DNA of 22,178 nucleotides, taken from a virus. Within the stretch, counting starts at the first letter, position 1. Each line of letters opens with the position of its first letter. The notes beneath the pieces are model-generated. The model had not been told where the DNA came from and made no database searches. It saw only the letters and a program-made list of their open reading frames with translations. The stretch is taken from positions 1 through 22,178 of the IMG/VR virus record IMGVR_UViG_3300046749_000115, one strand, 5' to 3'. The position numbers were made by a program, and so were the translations under genes. Positions 1 to 12,830 of this stretch are shown piece by piece.

Positions 1-114
1 AAGTAACTTCGATGATAGAGTTTTGACCGATTAGTGATTTGCGAATGACAAATCTTTTTGATTGAATTGAATTTTGCATAGTTATTATATTTAAGTATTA
101 GTATTTGTTTATTA

Positions 115-147
115 TATTATCCAGTTTGAGTTTAGTTTTGTTTGTAA
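115..147 (+). repeat. Degenerate direct repeat, copy 1 (TATTATCCA box)
   Basis: The 33-base unit begins TATTATCCAG and ends TTTGTAA. It aligns without gaps to units at 391-423 and 528-560, which share the same first nine bases and the terminal TGTAA. It is preceded by CATAGTT and TTTAAGT words (77-95) that also occur before copy 3. Confidence 0.6.
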
Positions 148-390
148 AGTGTATATTTGTTTAGTATTTAAAAATTAGTTATATGTATTACACTCAATGT
201 CTACTTGTATTGTTGAATTATTTTATTTACTTCAATTATATTTTCATGTTGACTATTAAAAAGTATTTCATTATTACTTGAATTTAATATTGTAAAGTCA
301 TATAACTTATCATTGTGACAATATTGTATTTGAAATTTAGTTTTTACATTGAAGACATTTAACATATTTAGTATTTTTTAGTTACATTAT

Positions 391-423
391 TATTATCCAA
401 ATTGACTTGTATTTTGTCTGTAA
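391..423 (+). repeat. Degenerate direct repeat, copy 2 (TATTATCCA box)
   Basis: The unit begins TATTATCCAA and ends TCTGTAA, at the same 33-base length as copies 1 and 3. It starts 276 bases after copy 1, about twice the 137-base distance to copy 3. A weaker match near 271-297, ending in TGTAAAG, sits about where a missing copy would fall. Confidence 0.6.
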
Positions 424-527
424 TTTAATTAGTATTATTACTTACTGTATTGTACATGTTGATCAGTTCAGTCGAAGTAAACATAGTTAGATAGTTCATA
501 GTTGTATTGTTTAAGTGATTACATATA

Positions 528-560
528 TATTATCCAGATTAGTTAGTAGTTTCTCTGTAA
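528..560 (+). repeat. Degenerate direct repeat, copy 3 (TATTATCCA box)
   Basis: The unit begins TATTATCCAG and ends TCTGTAA. It closes the T-rich tract; just after it, composition changes to G-containing, A-rich sequence. The upstream segment 496-515 shares CATAGTT and TTTAAGT words with the segment before copy 1. Confidence 0.6.
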
Positions 561-720: not shown

Positions 721-750
721 TTGTGACACTAGCCTTATAAATAGTATAGT
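721..750 (+). promoter_or_regulatory. Possible sigma70-type promoter (weak)
   Basis: TTGTGA (721-726) and TATAGT (745-750) are separated by 18 bases and resemble -35 and -10 boxes. They lie inside the long palindrome. The typical Bacteroidota -7 element TAnnTTTG is not seen here. In AT-rich DNA such matches are common, so this is only a candidate. Confidence 0.2.
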
Positions 751-767
751 AACAGGCTTATGTCACA
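722..767. repeat. Long interrupted palindrome TGTGACA-AGCCT / AGGCT-TGTCACA
   Basis: The outer arms TGTGACA (722-728) and TGTCACA (761-767) give 7 bp. The inner arms AGCCT (731-735) and AGGCT (754-758) give 5 bp. A 2x2 internal mismatch separates them and an 18-base AT-rich loop closes the structure. It could be an RNA hairpin in the 5' leader or a two-site operator for a dimeric regulator. It ends 63 bases before the first start codon. Confidence 0.55.
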
Positions 768-830
768 CTGAGGTAAAATCTTAGTGAAATCTGTGAGTAT
801 ATAATATATAAACGAATTAAAAGAAAGTAT

Positions 831-3119
831 ATGCCTATTATATATTCATACCCATTAATAAATACGGTCAAAGACAGTGACCAGTTTATAATAAGCGTAG
901 CCCCTACAGACAGTGAAGACACGTTTGAAACGCGCAATGTTACGTATGAAACGTTAAGGGACAATATATTAGCAGGTTCTACATCAGGTACAGTAGAAAG
1001 TATTACATTTGTAGCACCTTTAACAGGTGGAACTATAACAGATACAGGTAGTGTTAGCTTACCACAAGCTAATAGTTCTACTGACGGTTATCTATCTTCA
1101 ACTGACTGGACAGCATTTAACGCTAAACAGAACATTAGTGAAAAAGGCCAAGCAAATGGCTATGCGCCACTCAATGCGTTCACTAAAATAGACGTTCAGT
1201 ACTTACCTGACAGCTTTGTAGGTGCGGTAGTTTACCAAGGTACGTGGAACGCAGGGACAAACACACCTACACTTCCAGCCCCAGATCCTAACAACAAAGG
1301 TTATTACTACGTAGTAAGTGACCCTGGCACATATTTAGGTGTAACATATGGCATCGGCGACTGGGTTATTTCAAATGGAACTGATTGGGAAAAAGTTGAC
1401 AACTCGCAAAGTGTTACGTCTGTAAACGGGCAACAAGGTGTAGTTGTTTTAACTACCACAAATATTGCTGAGGGTACTAATCTTTACTATACAGATGCTA
1501 GAGTAGCATTAGCACCATCAGTTGTAGCCAACACAGCTAAAGTATCTTTCCCAGGTTTTGGAACTACAGCAGGTACAGCACTTGAAGGTGATACAGTAAT
1601 ACCAGCCGCGTACACAGATGCAGATGTTGATGCTCATTTAAATCAACCAACAGCTCAGATTGATCAGGTTTTATCTTGGAGTGGTGTTGATTACACTTGG
1701 GTAAATCAGTCTAGCGGTAGCAGCGGCAGTGTAACAGAGATTACAACAAGCGGTGGTTTAACTGGAGGTCCAATAACAAGTACAGGTGATATATCAATAG
1801 ATCCAACTGGTACTATTGGAGCTGGTACTTACGGTAGTACATTTAATAGTGTTAAGATAAATCAAATAGAAGTTGATACTTATGGCAGAATAGTATCTAT
1901 ATCAACTGGATCTACTGGATCTGGTAGTGGCACAATGTCTAGCTTTAATGTTACAAATGGCTCAACGTCAGGTGTTATGTCTGACAATGGCACATTCCAA
2001 ATATCTGGTGGTAACGGAGTTGACGTTTCACTTAGCGGGTCTGGTAGTACAGCTATATTTAACATAACTAACACTGACAGGGGTTCATCGCAAAGTATAT
2101 ACAAAAACTTTAGAGCAGACACAGGAGGTACTGCAACTGCTAACGTAAACAACGATACTATTGTTATAGCTGGCGGCACAAATATAGAAACAAATAGAAG
2201 CGGTGACACTATAACTATAAACGCTACAGGTGGCAACACCGACACTACTTATAGCTACGCATCGTCTCAAAGTACTAATGATGTAGATCTTACACTTGAA
2301 GGTTCTGATGCTTCAACAAATACAGTTAAACTTGTAGCTGGTTCAAATGTAACTCTTACCGACAACGGGTCTAACCAAGTTACTATTGATGCTGCCACAG
2401 GAACAGGTGTTGGTGGTAGTGGAACAACAAACTATATACCTATATGGTCAAATACGTCCACAATAGGTAACAGCGCTATATTCCAAAACGGAACTAACAT
2501 TGGTATAAACACCACGAACATTAATGCGGCTTTAGATGTTAATGGTCAACTTCGTGTTGAAGACACATTTAATCCACCTATATTAGCTGAAAGAAATATA
2601 ACAAGCCCAAGTCTCGGCGCTTTTCCATCTTTACATTTAAAGGCTATACCACCAAGTACACCTACCTCTGATGGCTTTGGAACAGGTATATTCTTTTCTA
2701 TAACAGGAAACAATGCAACTCCTGAAGCGAAAATGTACGCTGTAAGAAATGGTAACGATAACACCGCTAGCTTACAATTTTGGACTGGTCTAAACGCTAG
2801 TGTTAATTCAACTAATATACTAAGCACTGGTCAATTGCAACTACCACTTTATGGTGGTACTGCATTTTCTGGCACCGCTACAAAAAGTTTAGCTGTAGAC
2901 GCAGGTGGTAATGTTATTGAAATAGATGTTGCTGCATCTAATGTGCAATCAAACTGGACAGCTCCAGCTGGAGACCCTGCTGAAATATTAAACAAACCAA
3001 CAGACCTTGTTTCTGGTACAACACAAAGTCAAACAGCTGTTACACAAATAAGAACACTAACATCTACTGAGTATCAGGCTATAACTCCTGCGGCTGATGT
3101 ACTATATATAATCGTATAA
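831..3119 (+). CDS. Tail fibre protein with MPII-type N-terminal anchor
   Basis: This is a 762-aa, Gly/Ser/Thr/Asn-rich beta-repeat protein, very likely a virion-attached fibre used for host contact. It opens MPIIYSY...SDQFI, a short N-terminal segment shared with the fibre gene at 4420 and likely to be the virion anchor. Fibre motifs follow in order: DGYLSSTDWTAF (residues 85-96), NLYYTDARV (217-225), several GLTGG-type repeats, an NYIPIW segment near 530-540, LDVNG near 568, and a C-terminal end with EYQ...LYIIV. Such motifs are familiar from Bacteroidota phage fibres. The start at 831 is the first ATG after the leader; no Shine-Dalgarno sequence is visible. The family call is firm, but the receptor and exact position on the virion are unknown. 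Confidence 0.85.
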   Translation: MPIIYSYPLINTVKDSDQFIISVAPTDSEDTFETRNVTYETLRDNILAGSTSGTVESITFVAPLTGGTITDTGSVSLPQANSSTDGYLSSTDWTAFNAKQNISEKGQANGYAPLNAFTKIDVQYLPDSFVGAVVYQGTWNAGTNTPTLPAPDPNNKGYYYVVSDPGTYLGVTYGIGDWVISNGTDWEKVDNSQSVTSVNGQQGVVVLTTTNIAEGTNLYYTDARVALAPSVVANTAKVSFPGFGTTAGTALEGDTVIPAAYTDADVDAHLNQPTAQIDQVLSWSGVDYTWVNQSSGSSGSVTEITTSGGLTGGPITSTGDISIDPTGTIGAGTYGSTFNSVKINQIEVDTYGRIVSISTGSTGSGSGTMSSFNVTNGSTSGVMSDNGTFQISGGNGVDVSLSGSGSTAIFNITNTDRGSSQSIYKNFRADTGGTATANVNNDTIVIAGGTNIETNRSGDTITINATGGNTDTTYSYASSQSTNDVDLTLEGSDASTNTVKLVAGSNVTLTDNGSNQVTIDAATGTGVGGSGTTNYIPIWSNTSTIGNSAIFQNGTNIGINTTNINAALDVNGQLRVEDTFNPPILAERNITSPSLGAFPSLHLKAIPPSTPTSDGFGTGIFFSITGNNATPEAKMYAVRNGNDNTASLQFWTGLNASVNSTNILSTGQLQLPLYGGTAFSGTATKSLAVDAGGNVIEIDVAASNVQSNWTAPAGDPAEILNKPTDLVSGTTQSQTAVTQIRTLTSTEYQAITPAADVLYIIV

Positions 3120-3120
3120 T

Positions 3121-4404
3121 ATGGCTGATTTAAAATTCGGAAATGTAACACCTGCTGTAGGTAACATTAAGCTAGGTAGTAGTAATGTTTCTGAAATATA
3201 TCAGGGCGCAACTAAATTATGGCCACTAGGTTCAGCTCCGCAGCCAGGCGAAGTTACTGTATGTGATTTAATATGGACAAAAACAAATTCAACAATTACA
3301 GCAACAACAAGTGGCAGTGCTATACCTGTAGTTACTAATCAAAACGATTGGATAACTAAATGTCAAAATAACGATCCAGCTGCTTGCTATTGGCAATTTG
3401 ATTCTAATAATGCTTTTAGAGGTCTTTATTATAATGTTTTTGCAACAGAAGTAATACAGCCGCCAACAGGGTTTAGAGTTCCTACAGCGCAAGATTGGCA
3501 AGATTTAATAGGCTGTGCTGCAACAGGTTCTCCTGATAGTCCTAACGATGTAACTTCTTTAGGTAATAATTATTACGGTTTTTGGTCTTCTAATATAGCT
3601 TCTAATTCAAGATTTGGAACAGTAGATTTTAATTCTATAAGTGCTGGTTATACGTATCAAAATAGTACAACTATACCTCCAGCTCTTCCTCAATCTTGGG
3701 TTAGTCAAGGTAAAAGAGATATATATCACCAACAGCAACCTGGCAGCTTGCCAGCTAGTTATTACCCTATAACTATGTTTTGGAGAGGGCCTCAAGGAGC
3801 AAATCAAGATTGGATTGTTGGTTATTGGAACGCTGGTTTTGCTGATGGTTTTCAAGGTGGTAAAAATGGTGGGGCTCTTATGAGATTTGTTAAAGACGCA
3901 CCACCACCTGCAACTGTTAATTTTTATTTTAATGACACTCAAACAGGGACACCAACTACATCTTTGTATCAAGATGCTTTTGCAGCCGGAAACACACAAG
4001 GTACAAATGTTGCACTTTTGCAAACAAACGCATCTTTTGAGATAATAGGTAATCCAGCTACTATTAAATTTGTAGCATATACTGACGTAGGTACAGCGGA
4101 GCCTCCATTAGCTAGATTTACAAACATAGATTGGAAAATTTATACAAACTTAAATAGAACTATTTTAGCTCATCAAACTGAATGGGAGTTTGCCACAAGA
4201 GGGTCTGATTCTTTTCCAATAATACCAACTACACCTTCTAGTACTCTTGGTTTTAGTATTGAAAATTGGGGAACTGAAGCGGGTAGTGTAACTTTAAATC
4301 CAGGTGTTTATTACATAAGACTTGTGTATTATTATGGAAATAGTAACATTTCAGGTGGTTTTGCTAGTTCAAATTACAAGGTTTCTTTTGAACAAGGTCC
4401 TTAA
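3121..4404 (+). CDS. Fibre/adhesin with C-type-lectin-like (Fib_succ_major-type) domain
   Basis: This 427-aa protein starts one base after the previous stop. Residues 1-37 (ending YQGATKLWPLG) resemble a short phage virion-attachment head ending in a Y-x-G-x-T-K-L-W motif. Residues about 45-260 read as a C-type-lectin or formylglycine-generating-enzyme-like fold of the Fib_succ_major kind. Its marks are GFRVPTAQDW (117-126), an aromatic and Asn-rich middle with NNYYGFWSSN (149-158), and a closing GALMRFVKD (251-259). Such domains serve as ligand-binding heads and are the usual targets of diversity-generating retroelements. The remaining 165 residues look like another beta-rich domain of unknown kind. 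No reverse transcriptase or template repeat is seen in this window. I infer a receptor-binding role. Confidence 0.75.
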   Translation: MADLKFGNVTPAVGNIKLGSSNVSEIYQGATKLWPLGSAPQPGEVTVCDLIWTKTNSTITATTSGSAIPVVTNQNDWITKCQNNDPAACYWQFDSNNAFRGLYYNVFATEVIQPPTGFRVPTAQDWQDLIGCAATGSPDSPNDVTSLGNNYYGFWSSNIASNSRFGTVDFNSISAGYTYQNSTTIPPALPQSWVSQGKRDIYHQQQPGSLPASYYPITMFWRGPQGANQDWIVGYWNAGFADGFQGGKNGGALMRFVKDAPPPATVNFYFNDTQTGTPTTSLYQDAFAAGNTQGTNVALLQTNASFEIIGNPATIKFVAYTDVGTAEPPLARFTNIDWKIYTNLNRTILAHQTEWEFATRGSDSFPIIPTTPSSTLGFSIENWGTEAGSVTLNPGVYYIRLVYYYGNSNISGGFASSNYKVSFEQGP

Positions 4405-4419
4405 TAAAAAAAATAACAT

Positions 4420-5115
4420 ATGCCCATAATATCATCGTATAAAAAGAACAATACGCCAGAGCCATCTGATATACTCATAGGAACAGATGTATCTAATGGG
4501 CAGACAAAAAACTTTAGTCTAGGCGGAGCATCAGTTGTCATAATAAATGACTTTTTAAAACACTCTGCCTGGAAGTTTATCATACAAGATCCTGATCCAG
4601 ACCCTAGACCAGAAGGCACTATATCATTTGAAAACTATGGTGGTCAAGCTACATCTTGGCAAGATATAACTAGTCTGTATATAAATGTACAAATGCCAGT
4701 AACAATACCTGTAGTTTTACCTTATCTACAAAGATTTATAGGTCACGATATAATTATACAAGACATTAGATCGCTAGGTAGATTTGGCGTTTATACGTTA
4801 ACAGCTTTAACTCAAGTTCAAGGTAATGTTTATAACATGGAGCTAGAGTTTGTAACTGGTAATAATGACATACAAGCACTTCAATATTATTCAATTCAAA
4901 TAGATGAAGTAGAAGGCTTTGATTCTCACTTCGAATTTATACAAGGTGTACCAGCTACAACTTGGGACATAACACATAATTTAGATAAGTTTCCTTCAAT
5001 ATCAGTTGTAGATACAGCGGATACAACTGTTATAGGTAGCTATGATTACGTAACAAAAAATAGAGTAATATTAAACTTCTCGGATGCTTTTGCTGGAAGA
5101 GCGTTTTTAAACTAA
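4420..5115 (+). CDS. Short tail fibre protein with MPII-type anchor
   Basis: This 231-aa protein has an N-terminus (MPIISSY...NTPEPSDILIGTD) that aligns without gaps to the first 23 residues of the fibre at 831, with M-P-I-I, S-Y, N-T and S-D in register. The following NGQTKNFSLGG is typical of this anchor. The C-terminus, with TWDITHNL (residues about 180-187) and a closing segment ending GRAFLN, matches a recurrent phage fibre tip module. Between them lies a beta-rich body without a recognised domain. The leader (TTAATAAAAAAAATAACAT) is purely A/T-rich apart from one C. It is likely a second, shorter fibre or an adaptor in the same tail complex. Confidence 0.75.
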   Translation: MPIISSYKKNNTPEPSDILIGTDVSNGQTKNFSLGGASVVIINDFLKHSAWKFIIQDPDPDPRPEGTISFENYGGQATSWQDITSLYINVQMPVTIPVVLPYLQRFIGHDIIIQDIRSLGRFGVYTLTALTQVQGNVYNMELEFVTGNNDIQALQYYSIQIDEVEGFDSHFEFIQGVPATTWDITHNLDKFPSISVVDTADTTVIGSYDYVTKNRVILNFSDAFAGRAFLN

Positions 5116-5121
5116 AAAATA

Positions 5122-6930
5122 ATGGCAATACAATTTGTAAATAATGTAGATTTTAACGCGAATCAAGCGCAGTCTATAAGAATAGAAAACGTCGCAACCG
5201 ATCCTTCTACAGAATTAGTTATCGGTAGAATTATATTTAACACAGCTGCAGATACACTTAAGCAGTATGTTGCTGACGCTGGAAGCGGTAGCCCTGGTTG
5301 GGTTGAGGTGGGTAGCAGTAGTGGCGTTGAAACTTTAACAGCTGCTCAAGGTACATTTATATCTTTTACAGCGGCTAGTTCAGCAACTGGCGACGTTGAT
5401 TTAGGTACGTTTGATCTTTCAGCTGGTGGTTCACCAAGCGCAACTACATTTTTAAGAGGTGATAACACTTGGGCAGCCACAGGTACAGTAACATCTGTTG
5501 GTCTTTCAATGCCAGCAGCTTTTACTGTAACAAATTCTCCAGTAACAGGTTCTGGTACTTTAACTGTAACTGGTGCTGGTAGTACATCTCAGTATATAAG
5601 AGGTAATGGAACTTTAGCTACATTCCCAACTATACCAACTGTACCTTCTAACATTGTAGAAACAGTTACTACTACAGACGGTACATATATAAATTTAACA
5701 CCAAATACAGCTACAGATGGTGCGGTAACAATTACAGCTGATCTTTCAGCTGCAGATGGCACAGCTGCTTCAGGTGAAAGATATTTAACTAAAAGCAATA
5801 CCTGGGCAACGATTGCTTCGATACCTGGTACTTATGAATTCGAAGTAAGTGCTGATACAGGAACTCCTCAAGATGTTGGAAGTCAAGATACATTAGGTAT
5901 AAATGGTGGAACAAATATAAACACACAAGTTGCTGGTGGACCAGATATTACAATAAACTTAGATGATAGTATATCTTTAGCAGGTAGTTTAACAGTTGGA
6001 ACAACTGGTTCATTTACAGGTCAAGTTACAGTACCAACCGCAACAGCTGGAACAAACGCGCCTAACTTAGCTCAAGTTCAGTCTTTGGTAGCTGGAGTTG
6101 GTGTATTCCAGGGTGGTTATAATGCTATAACAAATTCACCGGCTTTAACAGGTAGTAGCAATATAGCGTTAGATCAAGGTGATTACTTTGCTGTAACCAA
6201 TTCAAACAACACTTCATTTTTAGGTACTATTTTAGAAGTTGGTGACTTAATATTTGCTAACAATACAATATTAGCAAACTCATCACCAGCCGCTATTGAT
6301 TACACAATTGTACAATCAGGACAAAGTATAGCTGGTGAAGGCGCAACAGATGGTGCTACTATAAAAGGTGTTGCTGGTTTTAACTCTGCACACTTTAGTG
6401 TTACATCTAACGGTTGGGTTTCAGCTGATATAGCAACCGCTAGTGCAATTGGTATTGGCAACGTAGATGCTTCTTCTGATGACTCAACACTGGGAATTAA
6501 CGTAGACTACAGTAACGGAACAGCGACAGTTGGATTAGACATAGAAGGTTTATCTGACATTTCTTTGCCAATTTCAAATCCACAAAATACTAGGCTTGCT
6601 ATATATGAAGATGATGATAATAAAAATTATGCAATATCTCTTACAGATTTAGCAGCCGAAATTGATATATCAAAAGGAGTTAGAATATTATTAAGCACCG
6701 CTACTTCAGGCGTGGGAAGAAATGAAGCTGGTGGTTTAACTACATTTGATGTAAACGTTGGTACTGTTCTTGGCGCGTCAGATCCTTTAGATGTTAAAGC
6801 AGAAATTACAACAGCTGCAGGTCAAACAGTGTATGCAGATGTCACAAGATCTGGTACTAAACTTAATGTTATATTTACAGGTAGTGTAGCAAATGGAACT
6901 TACTCAGCTTTACTAGTTGACGTAGGATAA
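5122..6930 (+). CDS. Tail fibre protein with MAIQF-type anchor
   Basis: This is a 602-aa Thr/Ser/Gly/Ala-rich repetitive protein. The N-terminus MAIQFVNNVDFNANQ, followed by a GWVEVG segment near residue 60, is a common phage fibre head that I know from many Bacteroidota phage proteins. Repeats with SATTFLRGDNTW, a GTVTSVGLSMP segment and STSQYIRGNGT are the usual T4-gp12/fibre-like shaft words. The C-terminal 90 residues (from about SKGVRILLS) form a distinct non-repetitive beta module. It begins six bases after the preceding stop and shares its anchor type with the next gene (MAVQFFNNV). It is a host-contact virion protein by family resemblance; its partner or receptor cannot be told. Confidence 0.8.
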   Translation: MAIQFVNNVDFNANQAQSIRIENVATDPSTELVIGRIIFNTAADTLKQYVADAGSGSPGWVEVGSSSGVETLTAAQGTFISFTAASSATGDVDLGTFDLSAGGSPSATTFLRGDNTWAATGTVTSVGLSMPAAFTVTNSPVTGSGTLTVTGAGSTSQYIRGNGTLATFPTIPTVPSNIVETVTTTDGTYINLTPNTATDGAVTITADLSAADGTAASGERYLTKSNTWATIASIPGTYEFEVSADTGTPQDVGSQDTLGINGGTNINTQVAGGPDITINLDDSISLAGSLTVGTTGSFTGQVTVPTATAGTNAPNLAQVQSLVAGVGVFQGGYNAITNSPALTGSSNIALDQGDYFAVTNSNNTSFLGTILEVGDLIFANNTILANSSPAAIDYTIVQSGQSIAGEGATDGATIKGVAGFNSAHFSVTSNGWVSADIATASAIGIGNVDASSDDSTLGINVDYSNGTATVGLDIEGLSDISLPISNPQNTRLAIYEDDDNKNYAISLTDLAAEIDISKGVRILLSTATSGVGRNEAGGLTTFDVNVGTVLGASDPLDVKAEITTAAGQTVYADVTRSGTKLNVIFTGSVANGTYSALLVDVG

Positions 6931-6945
6931 AACAAATAAAATTTA

Positions 6946-8673
6946 ATGGCAGTACAGTTTTTTAATAATGTAAACGTAGAAGCCCGAGTTATAGTAGGAA
7001 CTAACAACACGGTAGGTTCTAGTTTTTCCTCCACAAATATAATTGGAAGTGGCAACAACACATCAGATACAGGTGTGACTACTAGCACAAGTGTTATACT
7101 TGGAGACTCCAGCACTAGATATGGTAACATTGTTGTATCTGAAAGAACTTTAAAATTAGGTACAGATGATGTTATAAGCTCTAGTTCTTCAAATACAACT
7201 GGCATTTTAGAGCTTAATAACAGTTGGCGAGCAACCAGCGCTTTTGTAAATGTTGGTGGGTTTTTAGGTTATTTTCCACCGCCTACAACAAGTAATGAAT
7301 ACCTTTGGTTTTATGCGTCAGATAATAATTCTTTAACAACATCTAGTTTTAGTGCAGGTAATGCTCCAGAAGCAGCAGCCATACAAATGGAGTTTAATCC
7401 AAACTTTGGTACAAACTCTGCTGGAAATCCATCAAACGCACTTTTATTATCAGCTAACGGTAATAACTCATCTGCAGGCGCGCTTTACTTTACACTTAGC
7501 CAAAACAACACCACGTCATCGAGGGGCATTGTAACTTTTGATTGCAGACATAGAAACAATAATTATGAACCGCCTGATGGTATGAAGATGCTTGAAGTTA
7601 CAGGTGGTTGGAGTAGAACAAAATTTGTTGTAGAATCAGGAGGGCAAAACAATGAGGCTAGTGTAGGTATAGAAAAAGATATATTTCATCTTGGTGATAC
7701 CGATACGCACTTTGGATTTGTTGCAAATGATAACTGGGCAGTAACAACTGCAGGTTCAGAAAGAATAAGAGTAACAAGTGGAGGAAGTCTTGGTGTTGGT
7801 ACAAACAACCCAGTTAATAAATTAGACGTTACAGGTAACATTGGTATTGATGAGTATATAGTTCACAATGGAGATACTAACACTAAATTTGGTTTTTCTT
7901 CAGCAGGTGTTGTAACTTTTGGCGCAGACCCAGCTAATCCTACTTGGTATTTAGATTTAGTAAATAAAAAAGCAGGATTTAGAACTACAACTCCTGGTTC
8001 TGCATTCGATGTTAATGGTACTTTTAGGGCAAGAAATGAATTAAATGTAGGTGCTACATCAGAACAAAACTTTTTTGTTGAAGGAGGATCCGGACCTAGG
8101 TATGTTAAAATGGGTGCTTACACACCTACTAATAAAGATACTTGGTTAACAGGCACAACAAATGCAAATTTAGTTAGAGGCACTGCAGGCTTTGGAACAG
8201 GTGGTAAAGTCTTAATGGCAACATATAGATACACTACTAAAATAGAAGCCGGTGGTTGGCCTACAAGTGGTGGATATAGCAACGGGGTCAATGTGACACC
8301 TACTCCGTTAAGTACCCAACACATGATAGTTAAAGGTATTTTTGTGTACAGAGCAGGTGGTACTATAGGCTCTGGCTGGTCTACTAATAGTTACCCTGTT
8401 ATTTTTACACAAAAAAGAAACGATGGTAATTATTCACTTATAGGATCTGTAGATAGAAATACAATTATTAATGGAAATGGTTCTTGGTTTTACAATGCTT
8501 TTGGTTATGGTACAGGCGGTCAGAATGGTCAACAGGGTGGAACAGCTGCACCTGTAGTGTTGTCTTTGGATGCGGCTCCAATAACAAATGAGCCAACTTG
8601 GTACATTACAGTAGAATACAGTATAATAAAATTAGATGTTTATAGACAAAACGTAGATCAAACTTTAACTTAA
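6946..8673 (+). CDS. Tail fibre protein with MAVQF-type anchor
   Basis: This 575-aa protein begins MAVQFFNNVNVEARV, close to the MAIQF anchor of the preceding gene. The body carries the fibre signature SERIRVTSGGSLGVGTNNP followed by NKLDVTGNIGI, and later AFDVNG. These phrases recur in many phage and bacterial fibre-like proteins, often ahead of a chaperone or tip domain. The last 150 residues are aromatic-rich and end in a Tyr/Asp/Gln-containing tail. The leader is A-rich (AACAAATAAAATTTA). It is probably the fifth member of the fibre cluster. No intramolecular-chaperone (peptidase S74) catalytic motif is apparent. Confidence 0.8.
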   Translation: MAVQFFNNVNVEARVIVGTNNTVGSSFSSTNIIGSGNNTSDTGVTTSTSVILGDSSTRYGNIVVSERTLKLGTDDVISSSSSNTTGILELNNSWRATSAFVNVGGFLGYFPPPTTSNEYLWFYASDNNSLTTSSFSAGNAPEAAAIQMEFNPNFGTNSAGNPSNALLLSANGNNSSAGALYFTLSQNNTTSSRGIVTFDCRHRNNNYEPPDGMKMLEVTGGWSRTKFVVESGGQNNEASVGIEKDIFHLGDTDTHFGFVANDNWAVTTAGSERIRVTSGGSLGVGTNNPVNKLDVTGNIGIDEYIVHNGDTNTKFGFSSAGVVTFGADPANPTWYLDLVNKKAGFRTTTPGSAFDVNGTFRARNELNVGATSEQNFFVEGGSGPRYVKMGAYTPTNKDTWLTGTTNANLVRGTAGFGTGGKVLMATYRYTTKIEAGGWPTSGGYSNGVNVTPTPLSTQHMIVKGIFVYRAGGTIGSGWSTNSYPVIFTQKRNDGNYSLIGSVDRNTIINGNGSWFYNAFGYGTGGQNGQQGGTAAPVVLSLDAAPITNEPTWYITVEYSIIKLDVYRQNVDQTLT

Positions 8674-8679
8674 TATAAA

Positions 8680-8949
8680 ATGGCGTCTGATAATATACAA
8701 ATAACTAAACTTGAAGTAAAAATAGATTGTGATGGCTTAACAAATATAGTTAATAAGATATATTTTACTTACACAGACGGGCAGCAATATGTAGGTGCTG
8801 TTGGTTTACCAAACGCTGAAAATTTTGTTGCATTTGAAAATTTAACAGAACAAACTGTGTTAAATTGGTTAAATGTTGAAGAGGCGTTATCATCATGTTG
8901 CTATGATTCATTATCACCTATATGCGAGTTAAAAGGTTTACCATGGTAA
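8680..8949 (+). CDS. Small fibre-adjacent phage protein (DUF7936-like)
   Basis: This 89-aa protein directly follows the fibre cluster, six bases after its last stop. It reads as a small beta sheet plus helix: ITKLEVKID, then DGLTNIVNKIYFTY, a short FVAFENLTEQTVLNWL helix and a Cys-containing tail (CCYD, CELKG). The pattern of I-T-K-L-E-V, D-G-L-T-N-V-V and L-T-E-x-x-V-x-x-W-L resembles the small phage family I remember as DUF7936; this is from memory and unverified. Its function is unknown. The position suggests a tail or fibre accessory protein. The three Cys residues near the C-terminus are unusual for this window. Confidence 0.6.
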   Translation: MASDNIQITKLEVKIDCDGLTNIVNKIYFTYTDGQQYVGAVGLPNAENFVAFENLTEQTVLNWLNVEEALSSCCYDSLSPICELKGLPW

Positions 8950-8951
8950 AA

Positions 8952-8970
8952 ATCACTAAAAATAAGTGAT
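8952..8970. repeat. Hairpin ATCACT/AGTGAT
   Basis: A 6-bp stem with a 7-base A/T loop lies three bases after the stop codon of the preceding gene. There is no T-run behind it. It may be a weak terminator or an RNA-processing or protecting stem. Confidence 0.35.
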
Positions 8971-8985
8971 ATATAAAGTATACCC

Positions 8986-9001
8986 TGCTCGGGAAAGAGC
9001 A
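8986..9001 (+). promoter_or_regulatory. Hairpin TGCTC-GGGAAA-GAGCA in leader
   Basis: A perfect 5-bp stem with a 6-base purine loop lies 30 bases before the next start codon and is followed by an A-rich C-containing leader. A similar stem (TACTC-GCGAA-GAGTA) lies 28 bases before groEL. The two occurrences suggest a shared leader element. Confidence 0.4.
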
Positions 9002-9031
9002 ACCAAATAAACTAATATAAAACCAAAACCA

Positions 9032-9316
9032 ATGACACTATATTATAAGACTAGTACGTGGAGTAGTCAACCACAAATATCCGAAGACCAAATAAACTTT
9101 TGGAAGCATATCGCTGATAAAACTAATTGGCGAATAGTACAACTACCAAATGGATATTTTCAAACTGAATACAAAGATCAAGAAGAAGCTTGGCAAGATG
9201 TTACTCGTAGAGAAACTATGGACGGCGCAGAAGCCGCTATAGATGGTAGCATTGAGCATTATACTAAAAAGCTTGAATTTGTAAAAGGACCTAAGGTAGT
9301 TAAAACTTTTGAATAA
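9032..9316 (+). CDS. Hypothetical phage protein, Trp/Glu-rich
   Basis: This 94-aa protein has no domain I can name with confidence. It has a Trp-rich N-terminal half (WSSQPQISEDQINFWKHIAD, then NWRIVQLPNGYFQTEY) and a helical second half (AWQDVTRRETMDGAEAAIDGSI). The compact, well-ordered sequence and normal coding composition support a real gene. It stands alone between two structured intergenic stretches, so it is probably expressed with its own leader rather than by direct coupling. The neighbours are fibre genes on the left and groEL on the right, which gives no clear clue to function. Confidence 0.6.
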   Translation: MTLYYKTSTWSSQPQISEDQINFWKHIADKTNWRIVQLPNGYFQTEYKDQEEAWQDVTRRETMDGAEAAIDGSIEHYTKKLEFVKGPKVVKTFE

Positions 9317-9445
9317 AAATAAATCGGGCGAGGCATGCTGCGGTGTACTATTAACAAGTAGGAACCGTGTGGACGATTTACTGCCGGACCCGTTCAATAC
9401 GCTACTCGCGAAGAGTAAAATAAATATAATTTAATTAAATCAATT
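9317..9445 (+). ncRNA. Candidate structured leader RNA upstream of groEL
   Basis: This 129-base intergenic stretch contains a block (9325-9415) that is about 55% G+C by my count, far above the AT-rich intergenic norm here. A 7-bp perfect pairing joins TAAATCG (9320-9326) with CGATTTA (9374-9380). Inside it, CGGT/ACCG (9341-9344 with 9364-9367) and TACT/AGTA (9346-9349 with 9357-9360) stack around a 7-base loop. A separate TACTC-GCGAA-GAGTA hairpin sits at 9403-9417. It does not fit a tRNA. It may be a cis-regulatory leader of groEL or an independent small RNA. No known riboswitch class is recognised. Confidence 0.4.
9403..9417 (+). promoter_or_regulatory. Hairpin TACTC-GCGAA-GAGTA before groEL
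   Basis: A 5-bp stem with a GCGAA loop is followed by AAAATAAATATAATTT and the groEL start 28 bases on. It is the counterpart of the hairpin at 8986-9001. Confidence 0.4.
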
Positions 9446-11002
9446 ATGTCAGACAAAATTGTCAAAAACCTCAACTTTGGGGAAGACGCAAAGAACAGGG
9501 TGTTTAAAGGTATAGAAAAACTCACGAAAGCTGTTAGCTCCACGCTTGGGGCTAGCGGTCAATGTGTTATACTAGAAGATGATCAAGGCAAACCTGTAAT
9601 CACAAAAGACGGTGTAACTGTTGCAAACAGTATTATACTAAGAGACCCAGTTGAAAATATGGGTGCTACGCTTTTAAAAGAAGCTGCTAGAAAAACTGTG
9701 CAAGAAGCTGGCGATGGAACGACAACAGCTACAGTACTAGCGCACTCAATTTTAACAGAGGCCTACAAAAATTTAGATAAAGATAATACCCGTAATATTA
9801 AAGAAGGTATAAGTAAAGCTGTCGATAATGTTATTAAATACCTAGAAAAAAAAGCAATACCAGTTGAAGGTACTATGCTTGACGATGTTGCTACGATTAG
9901 CTGTAACAACGATAAAGAACTAGGTAAGATAATTGGGGAAGCGTTTAAAGCTGCTGGTGAAAACGGCGTTGTTGTGATGGAGCCAACTACTGAAGATACT
10001 ACAGAGCTTGAGTTAGTTGATGGTGTTCAGTACGATAAAGGTTTAACCAACTCACATTTTGTAACAAGCAAAGACAAGCGTGTAGCTGAGCTTGATAATC
10101 CATTAGTATTACTACTAGAGTCACCTGTAGAATCCGTGCGTAAAATACAGTCGGTATTAGAGTATGCGATTAAAAACAAAAAACCTTTACTTGTAGTAGG
10201 TGATCTAGAAACAGAAGTGTTAGCGACTCTCGCTATGAATAAAGTAAAAGGTAACATAAAAGTAAACGTTATTAACGCGCCTACATATGGTATAACTAAG
10301 AAAGATACACTTTCTGATTTAGCTTTACTCACAGGGGCTACTGTAGTTAATGAAGATCTTGGAGATGATTTAGACGTTATTAATCCAGACTTCTTGGGTG
10401 TTTGTGACAAAAGTATCACTAATGACACAGAAACTATACTGCAAGTAGATACATCTACTGAAGATATAAAAAAATTAATTAGTTCAGTAAAAGATTTAAT
10501 AATTAAAGCCAAAGCACCAGGTGAAGTTATACGTCTTGAAAAACGTTTGGCTAGATTATCAGGCAAGGTTGCAGTTGTTAAAGTCGGTGCTAATTCAGGA
10601 ATCGAATTAAAAGAAAAATCAGATAGAGTTGAAGACGCTATCTGTGCTACTAAAGCCGCGGTAAAAGAAGGTATAGTGTCAGGAGGCGGTATAGCTTTGC
10701 TTGACGCATCTAAAGAAACCAAAGCAAAAACAGCTGGTGAAAAGATATTGCTAGAAGCTATTAAAGCGCCGTTTAAAACTATACTAAATAACGCTGGACT
10801 GGAAGAGGTTGGTACGCCCGAAGAAGGTATGGGTGTTAATGTAATTACAGGTGATATTGTAAATATGGTTGATAAAGGTATTATCGATCCATTGCTTGTA
10901 ACTAAAAGCGCACTCAAACACGCGGCTTCAGTGGCTACCACTATATTATCTACAGATTGTGTAATCAATAATTTAAGAGTTGAGTATGAAAGCGATAGGT
11001 AG
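9446..11002 (+). CDS. groEL: Phage-encoded chaperonin GroEL (Cpn60)
   Basis: GroEL forms ring complexes that fold proteins inside an ATP-driven, GroES-capped chamber. This copy has 518 residues against 548 in E. coli. The equatorial ATP site is intact: ITKDGV with D55, GDGTTT (residues 89-94), and SDRVEDA with D397, matching the catalytic Asp of bacterial GroEL. SGGG at 412-415 is also present. The apical region (about 190-370) is diverged but recognisable (PLLVVGDLETEVLATL, APTYG). Two departures stand out: the phosphate-loop GPKG is replaced by GASG (35-38), and the C-terminus ends without the GGM-repeat tail. groES overlaps its 3' end. The sequence is unlike a recent host copy and fits a phage lineage. 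Likely clients are virion proteins, by analogy with other phage chaperonins; this is inference. Confidence 0.95.
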   Translation: MSDKIVKNLNFGEDAKNRVFKGIEKLTKAVSSTLGASGQCVILEDDQGKPVITKDGVTVANSIILRDPVENMGATLLKEAARKTVQEAGDGTTTATVLAHSILTEAYKNLDKDNTRNIKEGISKAVDNVIKYLEKKAIPVEGTMLDDVATISCNNDKELGKIIGEAFKAAGENGVVVMEPTTEDTTELELVDGVQYDKGLTNSHFVTSKDKRVAELDNPLVLLLESPVESVRKIQSVLEYAIKNKKPLLVVGDLETEVLATLAMNKVKGNIKVNVINAPTYGITKKDTLSDLALLTGATVVNEDLGDDLDVINPDFLGVCDKSITNDTETILQVDTSTEDIKKLISSVKDLIIKAKAPGEVIRLEKRLARLSGKVAVVKVGANSGIELKEKSDRVEDAICATKAAVKEGIVSGGGIALLDASKETKAKTAGEKILLEAIKAPFKTILNNAGLEEVGTPEEGMGVNVITGDIVNMVDKGIIDPLLVTKSALKHAASVATTILSTDCVINNLRVEYESDR

Positions 11003-11249
11003 AAATATAATTATAGAAAATAAAAAAGAAGATACCATTAAAAAAACAGATGGCGGTCTTATGTTAACTGGTAAGCAACGATTTGACATTCGTTATAAAG
11101 AAGCTACTGTGCTTCATTGTGGCGATGAGGTTAGAGGTGTTAAAAAAGGTAACAGAATATTTTACGATAAACATTCAAGCAATAGACTTGAGGTTGATAA
11201 AAATGTTTTTTACGTTATAAAAGATACTGATGTAGTTGTTGTATTATGA
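10986..11249 (+). CDS. groES: Phage co-chaperonin GroES (Cpn10)
   Basis: GroES caps the GroEL ring. This protein is 87 aa (E. coli GroES is 97). It begins MKAIGRNIIIE, then a mobile-loop region containing DGGLMLTG (residues about 22-29). This corresponds to the GGIVLTG of bacterial GroES, whose hydrophobic tripeptide binds GroEL. The second half shows the G-x-V..V-K-x-G-x-x-I-F...VDKNVFYVIKDTDVVVV pattern of the barrel. I chose ATG 10986; a TTG two codons upstream is possible but less likely. The start overlaps the groEL end by 17 bases and its stop overlaps the next start (ATGA), so translation is probably coupled. The order groEL-groES is the reverse of bacterial operons. Confidence 0.85.
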   Translation: MKAIGRNIIIENKKEDTIKKTDGGLMLTGKQRFDIRYKEATVLHCGDEVRGVKKGNRIFYDKHSSNRLEVDKNVFYVIKDTDVVVVL

Positions 11250-11689
11250 AATTAGACGCTAGTGACATTAGAGATTTAAATCTTCTTAAACACTATCGTA
11301 TAATACGTAAGTGGGCTTGTAAAAATAATAATCTTAATGATGCAGAGCTAGAGTTGTTAATATACTTAGACTGCATGGATATGTTTACACGTAAAGATTT
11401 TGAAGACGGTACATATTCTTTTAGTTGGGACAATAGACGTTGGAACAAGCTTTTACAAAAAGACTGGATTACACTTTGGAGAAAATACAATAGAACCACT
11501 CAAAAGTACAATATATATAAAGTATCGTTCAAAGGTAAACAGTTAATATCACGCATGTATAGAATTATGCTAGGTGAAGAAGATATACCTACTAGCGCCA
11601 GACGTAATAGCATAATGAAAGGCAAGACTTATAGTGATAAAGTTTTGTCGTTTGCTATTAATAAAGTCAACAAAGATAAAAACAGATAA
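11246..11689 (+). CDS. Small winged-helix-like protein, putative regulator
   Basis: This 147-aa basic protein is coupled to groES by a 4-base ATGA overlap. The layout suggests a winged helix of MarR-like type: a helix ELELLIYLDCMDMF (residues about 34-47), a helix RRWNKLLQKDWITLW (about 65-79) that could be the recognition element, and a strand-turn-strand with KYNIYKVSFKGKQLI (about 87-101). A helix ending MLGEEDIP follows. Similar small proteins sit among structural genes of Bacteroidota phages in my recollection. A DNA-binding role would fit late-gene regulation, but the assignment rests on pattern alone and a structural virion role is not excluded. Confidence 0.5.
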   Translation: MKLDASDIRDLNLLKHYRIIRKWACKNNNLNDAELELLIYLDCMDMFTRKDFEDGTYSFSWDNRRWNKLLQKDWITLWRKYNRTTQKYNIYKVSFKGKQLISRMYRIMLGEEDIPTSARRNSIMKGKTYSDKVLSFAINKVNKDKNR

Positions 11690-11690
11690 T

Positions 11691-12620
11691 ATGGGAAAGT
11701 TTAAATTACCAGGAAAACTTCCAGGTTCTCCAAATAGAGTAGTTATGCCAGCTATTCAAGGTGGTGGTAGCTATAGAAATCCTGCTATGGTTATTGATCG
11801 TAGCGCTGAAATACTTGGCGCTGGAATACGATCTGGTATGGACAAAATAGGAGACGCTTTGAAAAACAAAGCTATGGATAAAATATCTGAAGAAAAAGGT
11901 CAGGAGCCGCAAAGCAATGTAGATAAAGAAATCAAAAAAACTCTTGATGGTGATACAGGTCAAAACAAATATGATAGATTTATGAGCGGTGGTTACCAAG
12001 CTGGCGACATGCTTTCTAGTGTTGTAGTTCCTAGAACTAGTTTTGGATTTCCTATGGTTGACGACGAGCTAGCAGCTGTTGGGGCACCTGTAGATTTACC
12101 CGAAACACCTTTAGAAATGAAAAACGATTCACCAAACAAATTTTTAGGAGGAATAACCGCTGGTGTAGCTGGTGGTAGCGGAGCATCTAGAGGAGGTCAA
12201 GTAGATCTTCAAAGTCTTGCTGGCGGCGGAGGAATGCTCGCAAGACTAGCACAAGCTCAATTAGCTCAAAACGCAGGACCAACCCAAGCTCAGCAAGCTG
12301 CTGCGGCTAGCACTGCTGCTGGTGGAACAATAGGTACTGCAGCTCAAAACCCTATGACTGGTGTAGCTAGCGGAGGTCAAACATTAAACTGTACTCCAGT
12401 TGCAATGTCATACGACCCGCCGTTACAAGCAAATGAGAAAGGTGGTAAAAAATCTGTATTTAATATGAATACTAAAGGTATGGCTGAAACTGCTTTTGGC
12501 ACGCCAGCAGAAAGACAAGCTTCTGTTGGGGCGGCGTTTCAAATGAGTGAAGCTCAAGAAAAAGCATTCGGACCAGGTGGTCACTCTGAAAACCCAGGTC
12601 TATATAAACAATTAAAATAA
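11691..12620 (+). CDS. Gly/Ala-rich phage protein of unknown function
   Basis: This 309-aa protein begins one base after the preceding stop. I chose ATG 11691 (MGKFKLPGKLPG) because an upstream extension in the same frame would overlap the previous gene by 56 bases and add an atypical segment. It has a Lys/Pro N-terminus, a helical stretch with DKIGDALKNKAMDKI (51-65), the motif MKNDSPNKFLGG (143-154), a Gly-rich linker, and an Ala/Gln-rich stretch (about 186-220). The low-complexity, flexible composition resembles internal or ejected virion proteins of podophages, but no domain is recognised. It shares the S-P-N/A-K motif with other genes nearby. Confidence 0.6.
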   Translation: MGKFKLPGKLPGSPNRVVMPAIQGGGSYRNPAMVIDRSAEILGAGIRSGMDKIGDALKNKAMDKISEEKGQEPQSNVDKEIKKTLDGDTGQNKYDRFMSGGYQAGDMLSSVVVPRTSFGFPMVDDELAAVGAPVDLPETPLEMKNDSPNKFLGGITAGVAGGSGASRGGQVDLQSLAGGGGMLARLAQAQLAQNAGPTQAQQAAAASTAAGGTIGTAAQNPMTGVASGGQTLNCTPVAMSYDPPLQANEKGGKKSVFNMNTKGMAETAFGTPAERQASVGAAFQMSEAQEKAFGPGGHSENPGLYKQLK

Positions 12621-12626
12621 ATAGTT

Positions 12627-12830
12627 ATGGATCATAAAATAAGTAAGTTATTAGGTAAACCAACACTTGAAGGTCAAGTAGGAGAGTCTCATGTTTGGGA
12701 TGGGCCACTAGATACTAGCGGTTTTCCAATGGGTGTTGGTAGTAGCTCTGGTATTACTGGTATGAAAATTAAAACTGCAGCGTGCACTTATACTCCCGGA
12801 CCAATAACCAAAAAAGCTCAAGGTGTCTAA
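12627..12830 (+). CDS. Small hypothetical phage protein
   Basis: This 67-aa protein has a mixed charged and Gly-rich sequence (MDHKISKLLGKPTLEG, then FPMGVGSSSGITGMKIK). I recognise no domain. It is supported by its tight placement: six bases after the preceding gene and overlapping the next by 8 bases. It could be a minor virion protein or an assembly factor. Confidence 0.5.
   Translation: MDHKISKLLGKPTLEGQVGESHVWDGPLDTSGFPMGVGSSSGITGMKIKTAACTYTPGPITKKAQGV

Follow-up and report, generated by a model that had tools for sequence, protein, structure and literature searches.

Reiterated two-block elements ahead of small minus-strand genes as probable early promoters in a group of uncultured phages with a sigma-70-family factor

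The window analysed here is an entire IMG/VR record (IMGVR_UViG_3300046749_000115), a phage fragment of 22,178 bases. Small minus-strand genes lie at its left end, and a plus-strand late block with tail-fibre, GroEL, terminase and portal genes begins beyond a divergent region. Rfam and tRNA searches of the window gave no match. The features of the left end are as follows.

2..79, minus strand: 5' part of a small gene of family F1, from the ORF list; open at the contig end and continued in L004
115..147, minus strand: copy 1 of the candidate early element, 33 bp, held-out score 35.2 bits
201..365, minus strand: 54-aa ORF of family F11, from the ORF list and homologues
391..423, minus strand: copy 2 of the candidate early element, 33 bp, held-out score 36.0 bits
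425..499, minus strand: 24-aa micro-ORF of family F3, from the ORF list and homologues; product putative
528..560, minus strand: copy 3 of the candidate early element, 33 bp, first block mismatched, held-out score 28.9 bits
664-676, 679-709 and 722-767, no strand: three inverted repeats, fold z-score -3.25; sequence conserved in L002, L003 and L004
773..803, plus strand: putative late promoter GTAA-N19-AGTATATA, facing the late genes
831..3119, plus strand: first late gene, encoding a tail-fibre-like protein of 762 aa

In the first-pass annotation, positions 1-560 had been described as a T-rich tract without genes. The composition was as described (positions 1-500: GC 0.216, AT skew -0.204, plus strand T-rich), and it arises because the small genes are on the minus strand and the coding strand is A-rich. 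The tract is not non-coding. Three minus-strand ORFs (2-79, 201-365 and 425-499) have homologues in other phages, and a gene hidden on a larger contig, the outcome that the same annotation had named as one that would refute it, was found in L004, which carries the left-hand ORF beyond the window edge. The three gapless 33-base repeats were present at the starts claimed (115, 391 and 528; spacings 276 and 137). They were scored with a matrix whose source copies each differed from every window copy at 6 or more positions, and all three exceed chance, the best score in 2 Mb of sequence simulated with the dinucleotide make-up of window 1-560 being 24.5 bits. A decayed copy proposed near 271-297 was not recovered: the best minus-strand score within 250-330 was -5.7 bits, the plus strand scored lower, and the stretch falls within the 54-aa ORF. 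The nearly 2:1 ratio of the two spacings proved accidental. Among 225 successive spacings at 80 related loci, of those listed, none lay within 3 of 137 and only one within 3 of 276; at these loci the spacings ran from 79 bp upwards with a median of 759, and helical phase was absent (resultant 0.07 modulo 10.5).

Read on the minus strand, the element is TTACAnACAAA-N13-TGGATAATA, with an ATG shortly downstream; the copy at 528-560 departs from it in the first block. When IMG/VR was scanned for the two blocks at any spacing between 8 and 18, 98 stretches carrying the element were returned. The spacer was exactly 13 in 185 of 193 distinct copies, so that the two blocks keep a constant distance; the 8 copies with other spacers were excluded from later counts. 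Copy totals vary with the context filter, from 193 distinct copies to 170 having 40 nt before and 250 nt after; a shorter-context set held 189 copies, 100 of which were folded, and distinct 36-mers numbered 143 and 156 in two scripts. Conservation extends to unfixed positions, with A-T-A following the first block (84, 78 and 82%). The same blocks and spacing were recovered by a word-pair count made without a preset pattern on early upstream stretches of seven genomes, where TGGATAAT was present in 29 of 99 stretches (0.2 expected).

The placement of the element relative to genes was highly regular. An ORF start was found within 60 nt downstream in 160 of the 170 copies with context; the corresponding shares were 36.4% for 3400 random positions on the same strand and 16.5% for the element sites read in the reverse direction. 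All 146 matches with up to 2 mismatches lay on one strand per record in each of 27 long records, which were selected for element presence and carry up to 10 copies apiece; the reversed control gave 0. This orientation and the position upstream of gene starts are those expected of early promoters. The gap between element and ATG ranged from 7 to 68 nt (5th to 95th percentile), a variability to be expected of a promoter rather than of a ribosome-binding site. The second block is followed by the ATG after fewer than 10 nt in 16 of the 170 IMG/VR copies; if the element is a promoter, these copies would give leaderless or nearly leaderless messages. A stem-loop or terminator role for the element was rejected, as a stable fold was absent: in 100 copies the mean z was -0.05 for the element and -0.49 for its upstream side, slightly better than shuffles.

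A variant first block, CACGGACTT, was found in L295, L308 and L314 and in one copy of L279, with the same geometry and strand in 17 of 17 cases. In cellular genome contigs the entire collection yielded 11 stretches with the element, 8 of them with one isolated match each and the remaining three (L323, L325, L326) phage-like. The latter are short contigs from an Aliivibrio MAG (L325, L326) and a Sphingobacteriales MAG (L323) with 1-5 exact elements before the same kinds of small genes, and are probably phage sequence that was binned together with the host. At 3 mismatches the element was matched in only 4 of 30 portal-chosen or named records, many of the 30 being fragments without an early region. 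The named phage MW202828 contained 0 elements at 2 mismatches; at 3 mismatches it and Elemovirus elemoA had one isolated match apiece. In one record of 69,399 bp (G008) two identical elements at equal spacing occur at both ends (6939-7189 and 68690-68940), which suggests terminal redundancy or assembly overlap.

The small genes of the window recur elsewhere, mostly behind the same element. Family F1 (2-79) has many homologues, with 11 members in 14 early blocks, and the element lies upstream of most; the exceptions include L295, L308 and L314. Among the matches listed, F11 has 6 distinct outside homologues (40-91% identical) with the element upstream of 5, the one in L277 being without it, and F3 likewise has 6 (59-83% identical), all preceded by the element. 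With E for the element, the window reads E-F3 E-F11 E-F1, L004 reads E-F15 E-F1 and G053 reads E-F3 E-F1; the order in G055 is E-F14, E-F11 with one unplaced ORF, then E-F1, and that in G057 is E-F3 E-F15 E-F11 E-F14 E-F1. Element-plus-gene units thus change in order and content between close relatives, as in cassette shuffling. Identity between the window and L004 is 94.6% across window 1-185 and 89% in the divergent region, and only 51% in the stretch between, which is the trace that an exchange of promoter-plus-gene cassettes would leave.

The base skew had been suggested to mark a strand or transcription switch point, and this was borne out: positions 560-830 part the minus-strand small genes from the plus-strand late block, as in relatives. 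The skew check proposed with it showed no GC-skew inversion at the tract. The inverted repeats at 664-767, between the divergent motifs, may be an operator, a terminator or an origin. The putative late promoter beyond them scored 33.8 with the matrix, the other strand reaching no more than 7.8; 0.15 matches were expected in the window. Across 80 sigma loci drawn from 485 relatives, the two blocks of GTAA-N19-AGTATATA were counted, on the strand that does not carry the sigma gene, 30 times at spacing 19 and at most twice at any other spacing, and the sigma strand had 0 at spacing 19; this count is not fully independent because the motif was first seen in genomes among the same 80 loci. A GTAA block with a second block at constant spacing, upstream of late genes as in the late promoters of phage 7-11 (see below), was found.

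A candidate phage sigma-70-family factor accompanies the element. Sigma70_r2 matched in 11 of 17 records tested, nine of them over the cut-off, on the element strand and downstream of the element block; Sigma70_r4_2 (PF08281) gave nothing over the cut-off in the 17 records. In three proteins r2 and r4 were both found, r2 over the cut-off in two and r4 just below it in all. The phage protein (alignment A2) matched 57 distinct solved sequences at E up to 0.1, all sigma factors among the matches listed. The predicted model was of low confidence (pLDDT 68), and its Foldseek matches were sigma chains at TM about 0.3. With a profile built from ten proteins having the Sigma70_r2 match, the gene was found in 25 of the 27 element-bearing long records; in the other two (G023, G027) the elements lie at most 3.5 kb from the contig end toward sigma. 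The same profile found it in 0 of 5 named relatives and 0 of 4 portal-chosen fragments. In two of the 25 records the frame is interrupted by stops or frame changes (G012 58338-59098 and G017 35215-35965), through either sequencing error or decay.

The survey was also run from the sigma gene. Among the 80 loci, 45 had at least 9 kb upstream, and 39 of these carried the element; six were without the strict element, three of the six bearing the variant. In all 80 loci together, 276 element copies lay upstream and 11 downstream of sigma on the sigma strand, and 0 on the other strand. In L295, L308 and L314, where the early first block is changed, the late motif is still GTAA-led. Sigma region 4 identity between the variant and standard groups was 0.77, against 0.75 within the first (19 proteins aligned), and a single column distinguished the groups across the entire protein. 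That late motif and region 4 stay constant where the early block changes fits a sigma that reads the late class and something else that reads the early class.

The window terminase and portal matched PHROGs 6681 and 6547, respectively. By terminase, the nearest named phages are MW202828.1 (62% identical) and the Flavobacterium elemo phages (46%), and terminase matches were found in 87 phage records, which are assigned to Flavobacterium (68), Cellulophaga (15), Tenacibaculum (2), Maribacter (1) and unclassified (1, MW202828.1). As these matches are mostly to Flavobacterium and Cellulophaga phages, a Bacteroidota host is likely. At 9446-11249 the window carries a GroEL-like gene followed by a small gene in the place of GroES, an arrangement also seen in MW202828 and elemoA.

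These comparisons make it highly probable that the elements are early promoters repeated ahead of small genes, next to the point where early and late genes diverge, and that a phage sigma factor switches on the late genes. Sequence comparison supplies the support: a constant spacer, single orientation, placement, conserved ORFs, shuffling, co-occurrence with sigma and a late motif of constant spacing; it is from these that we infer a promoter role for both motifs. Window 1-560 would be the start of the minus-strand early block of a tailed phage, in which each tiny gene has its own 33-bp two-block promoter, and 560-830 a divergent control region ending in the late promoter that would serve the plus-strand structural genes. 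A polymerase present from the outset, most likely that of the host and perhaps with a phage helper, would transcribe from the early copies immediately; small proteins of host-takeover type would result, and read-through would reach the genes for replication and sigma. In the next step, the phage sigma would steer host polymerase to the GTAA-type late promoter; recognition of the late motif by this factor fits the sequence pattern and the analogy with phage 7-11. The repeats flanking each small gene would allow cassettes to be exchanged by recombination.

The identity of the early reader, probably host polymerase, is the weakest link in this scheme. The Bacteroidetes promoter consensus consists of TTG and TAnnTTTG. 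The early element does not match it, a point against the scheme. The host-type pattern TTG-N17-21-TAnnTTTG was rejected as a candidate, being near expectation in the window and most of six phage genomes, with a highest count of 12 against 6.2 expected on one strand of G018; no consistent occurrence was found ahead of sigma, and TAnnTTTG was present in 0 of 99 early upstream stretches (4.0 expected). A T7-type RNA polymerase (PF00940) was detected in 0 of 17 records, a profile equally silent in 14 control genomes. Searched for a virion RNA polymerase, the 3694-aa protein of elemoA gave only DUF3293 over the cut-off in Pfam and nothing in PHROGs. Giant virion-block proteins are encoded at 1564-12648 of elemoA (L201; the 3694-aa protein) and at 741-12320 of MW202828.1, and DUF3293 was the only domain over the cut-off in them.

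The phage sigma might itself read the early elements, as a middle or feedback class, in which case expression of the tiny genes would have to wait until sigma had been made or injected. The two do occur together (25 of 27 long records; 39 of 45 sigma-chosen loci), the named relatives that are without the element at 2 mismatches are likewise without sigma, and the element is very strict and hardly present in cellular genomes (11 stretches, three phage-like). The early element and the late motif, however, have no block in common, the changed early block of L295, L308 and L314 is accompanied by an unchanged sigma region 4 and GTAA late block, and, within the early block, the copies precede sigma (276 upstream, 11 downstream). 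We regard this reading as unlikely. Distinctly less probable is a start-associated sequence of the SAS type, known from cluster K mycobacteriophages, that would act on the mRNA during its translation or processing. The SAS is separated from the start codon by a short and nearly constant distance. A single copy before each small gene, one orientation and variable gene content agree with such a role; against it, the two blocks are fixed relative to each other and not to the start codon, from which the element's distance is anything but constant (7 to 68 nt), and over 100 copies the RNA of the element showed no stable fold (mean z -0.05).

Strict two-block sequence and many intergenic copies would also suit an operator for a phage repressor or another DNA-binding protein at gene junctions, but the element is asymmetric, confined to one strand and placed just upstream of starts, and the chance of this reading is slighter still. 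The first-pass annotation had favoured an iteron-like origin, a partition or packaging site, or a decayed tandem array, a proposal that the copies, unphased, on one strand per record and nearly all before an ORF start, do not sustain. The tract is AT-rich, repeated and adjoins a divergence point with conserved inverted repeats; yet the copies are scattered between genes over several kb, irregularly spaced (79 bp up, median 759) and up to 10 per record, nearly all have an ORF behind them, and GC-skew inversion is absent. Close, phased direct repeats at one site, as in iterons, were not found, and we give these readings very little credence. Early promoters of small genes remain the preferred explanation of the element.

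Beyond this explanation, and only as a tentative possibility, this uncultured lineage, probably of Bacteroidota phages, may run a private two-code programme. Phage-only early promoters, whose first block would switch genome-wide in concert from TTACAnACAAA to TCACGGACTTA, would be read by a lineage-specific factor, a sigma would be dedicated to the GTAA late promoters, and the early promoter would double as a recombination joint for trading tiny host-takeover genes. On the preferred explanation, an apparently non-coding tract is read as a promoter code pointing to micro-genes (24-80 aa) that ORF callers easily miss and that are candidate host-takeover proteins in a widespread uncultured phage group. 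Since the early code is paired with a phage sigma and a separate late motif, the early-to-late switch is directly testable.

Among the literature matches listed, judged by title and the opening of the abstract, no description of the early element was found, and the matches listed contained no comparable promoter system for this phage group. Closest in gene content, MW202828.1 and elemoA share the layout of divergent small genes followed by GroEL, terminase and portal, their terminases being 62% and 46% identical to that of the window, and differ in that neither the sigma gene nor the late motif was found in them. In MW202828.1, a perfect 16-bp palindrome, GTGTCGTTAACGACAC, is present in fourteen exact copies at 43745-55154 (L196), many of them just upstream of small early genes; the palindrome occurred in none of the other loci compared. 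A repeated junction element of another kind seems to be in use in this sister phage.

Three published systems resemble the one proposed here. In the phiEco32-like phage 7-11, experiments showed that the sigma factor SaPh711_gp47 reads late promoters of the form GTAAtg-(16)-aCTA, and two early promoters, read by host sigma-70, are reported (PMC8948821). As in 7-11, a phage-encoded sigma is accompanied by bipartite GTAA-led late promoters with a constant gap and by a separate early class. The putative early promoter here is a reiterated cassette element, in contrast to the two early promoters reported for 7-11; the second late block is TGTRAGTATATA and not aCTA, and use of the sigma, experimental in 7-11, is here inferred. 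The SAS/ESAS of cluster K mycobacteriophages has the sequence GGGATAGGAGCCC, half of the copies carrying 17-bp inverted repeats (PMC3203893). Like the SAS there described, the present element is asymmetric, repeated, mostly in one orientation and ahead of varying gene families; it differs in consisting of two blocks at a fixed distance, with a variable distance to the start codon. In T4-like phages, promoter early stem-loops (PeSLs) are a repeated early-promoter element at gene junctions that has been linked to small-gene shuffling between related phages (PMC4503421). The element studied here is likewise a repeated junction element and putative early promoter, found together with cassette shuffling between related phages. 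Unlike the PeSLs of that account, it has no linked stem-loop (over 100 copies the mean z was -0.49 for the upstream side and -0.05 for the element side), and both phages and sequence are different. Per-gene early promoter cassettes and sigma-switched late genes are kinds already known, and the system proposed here would belong with them.
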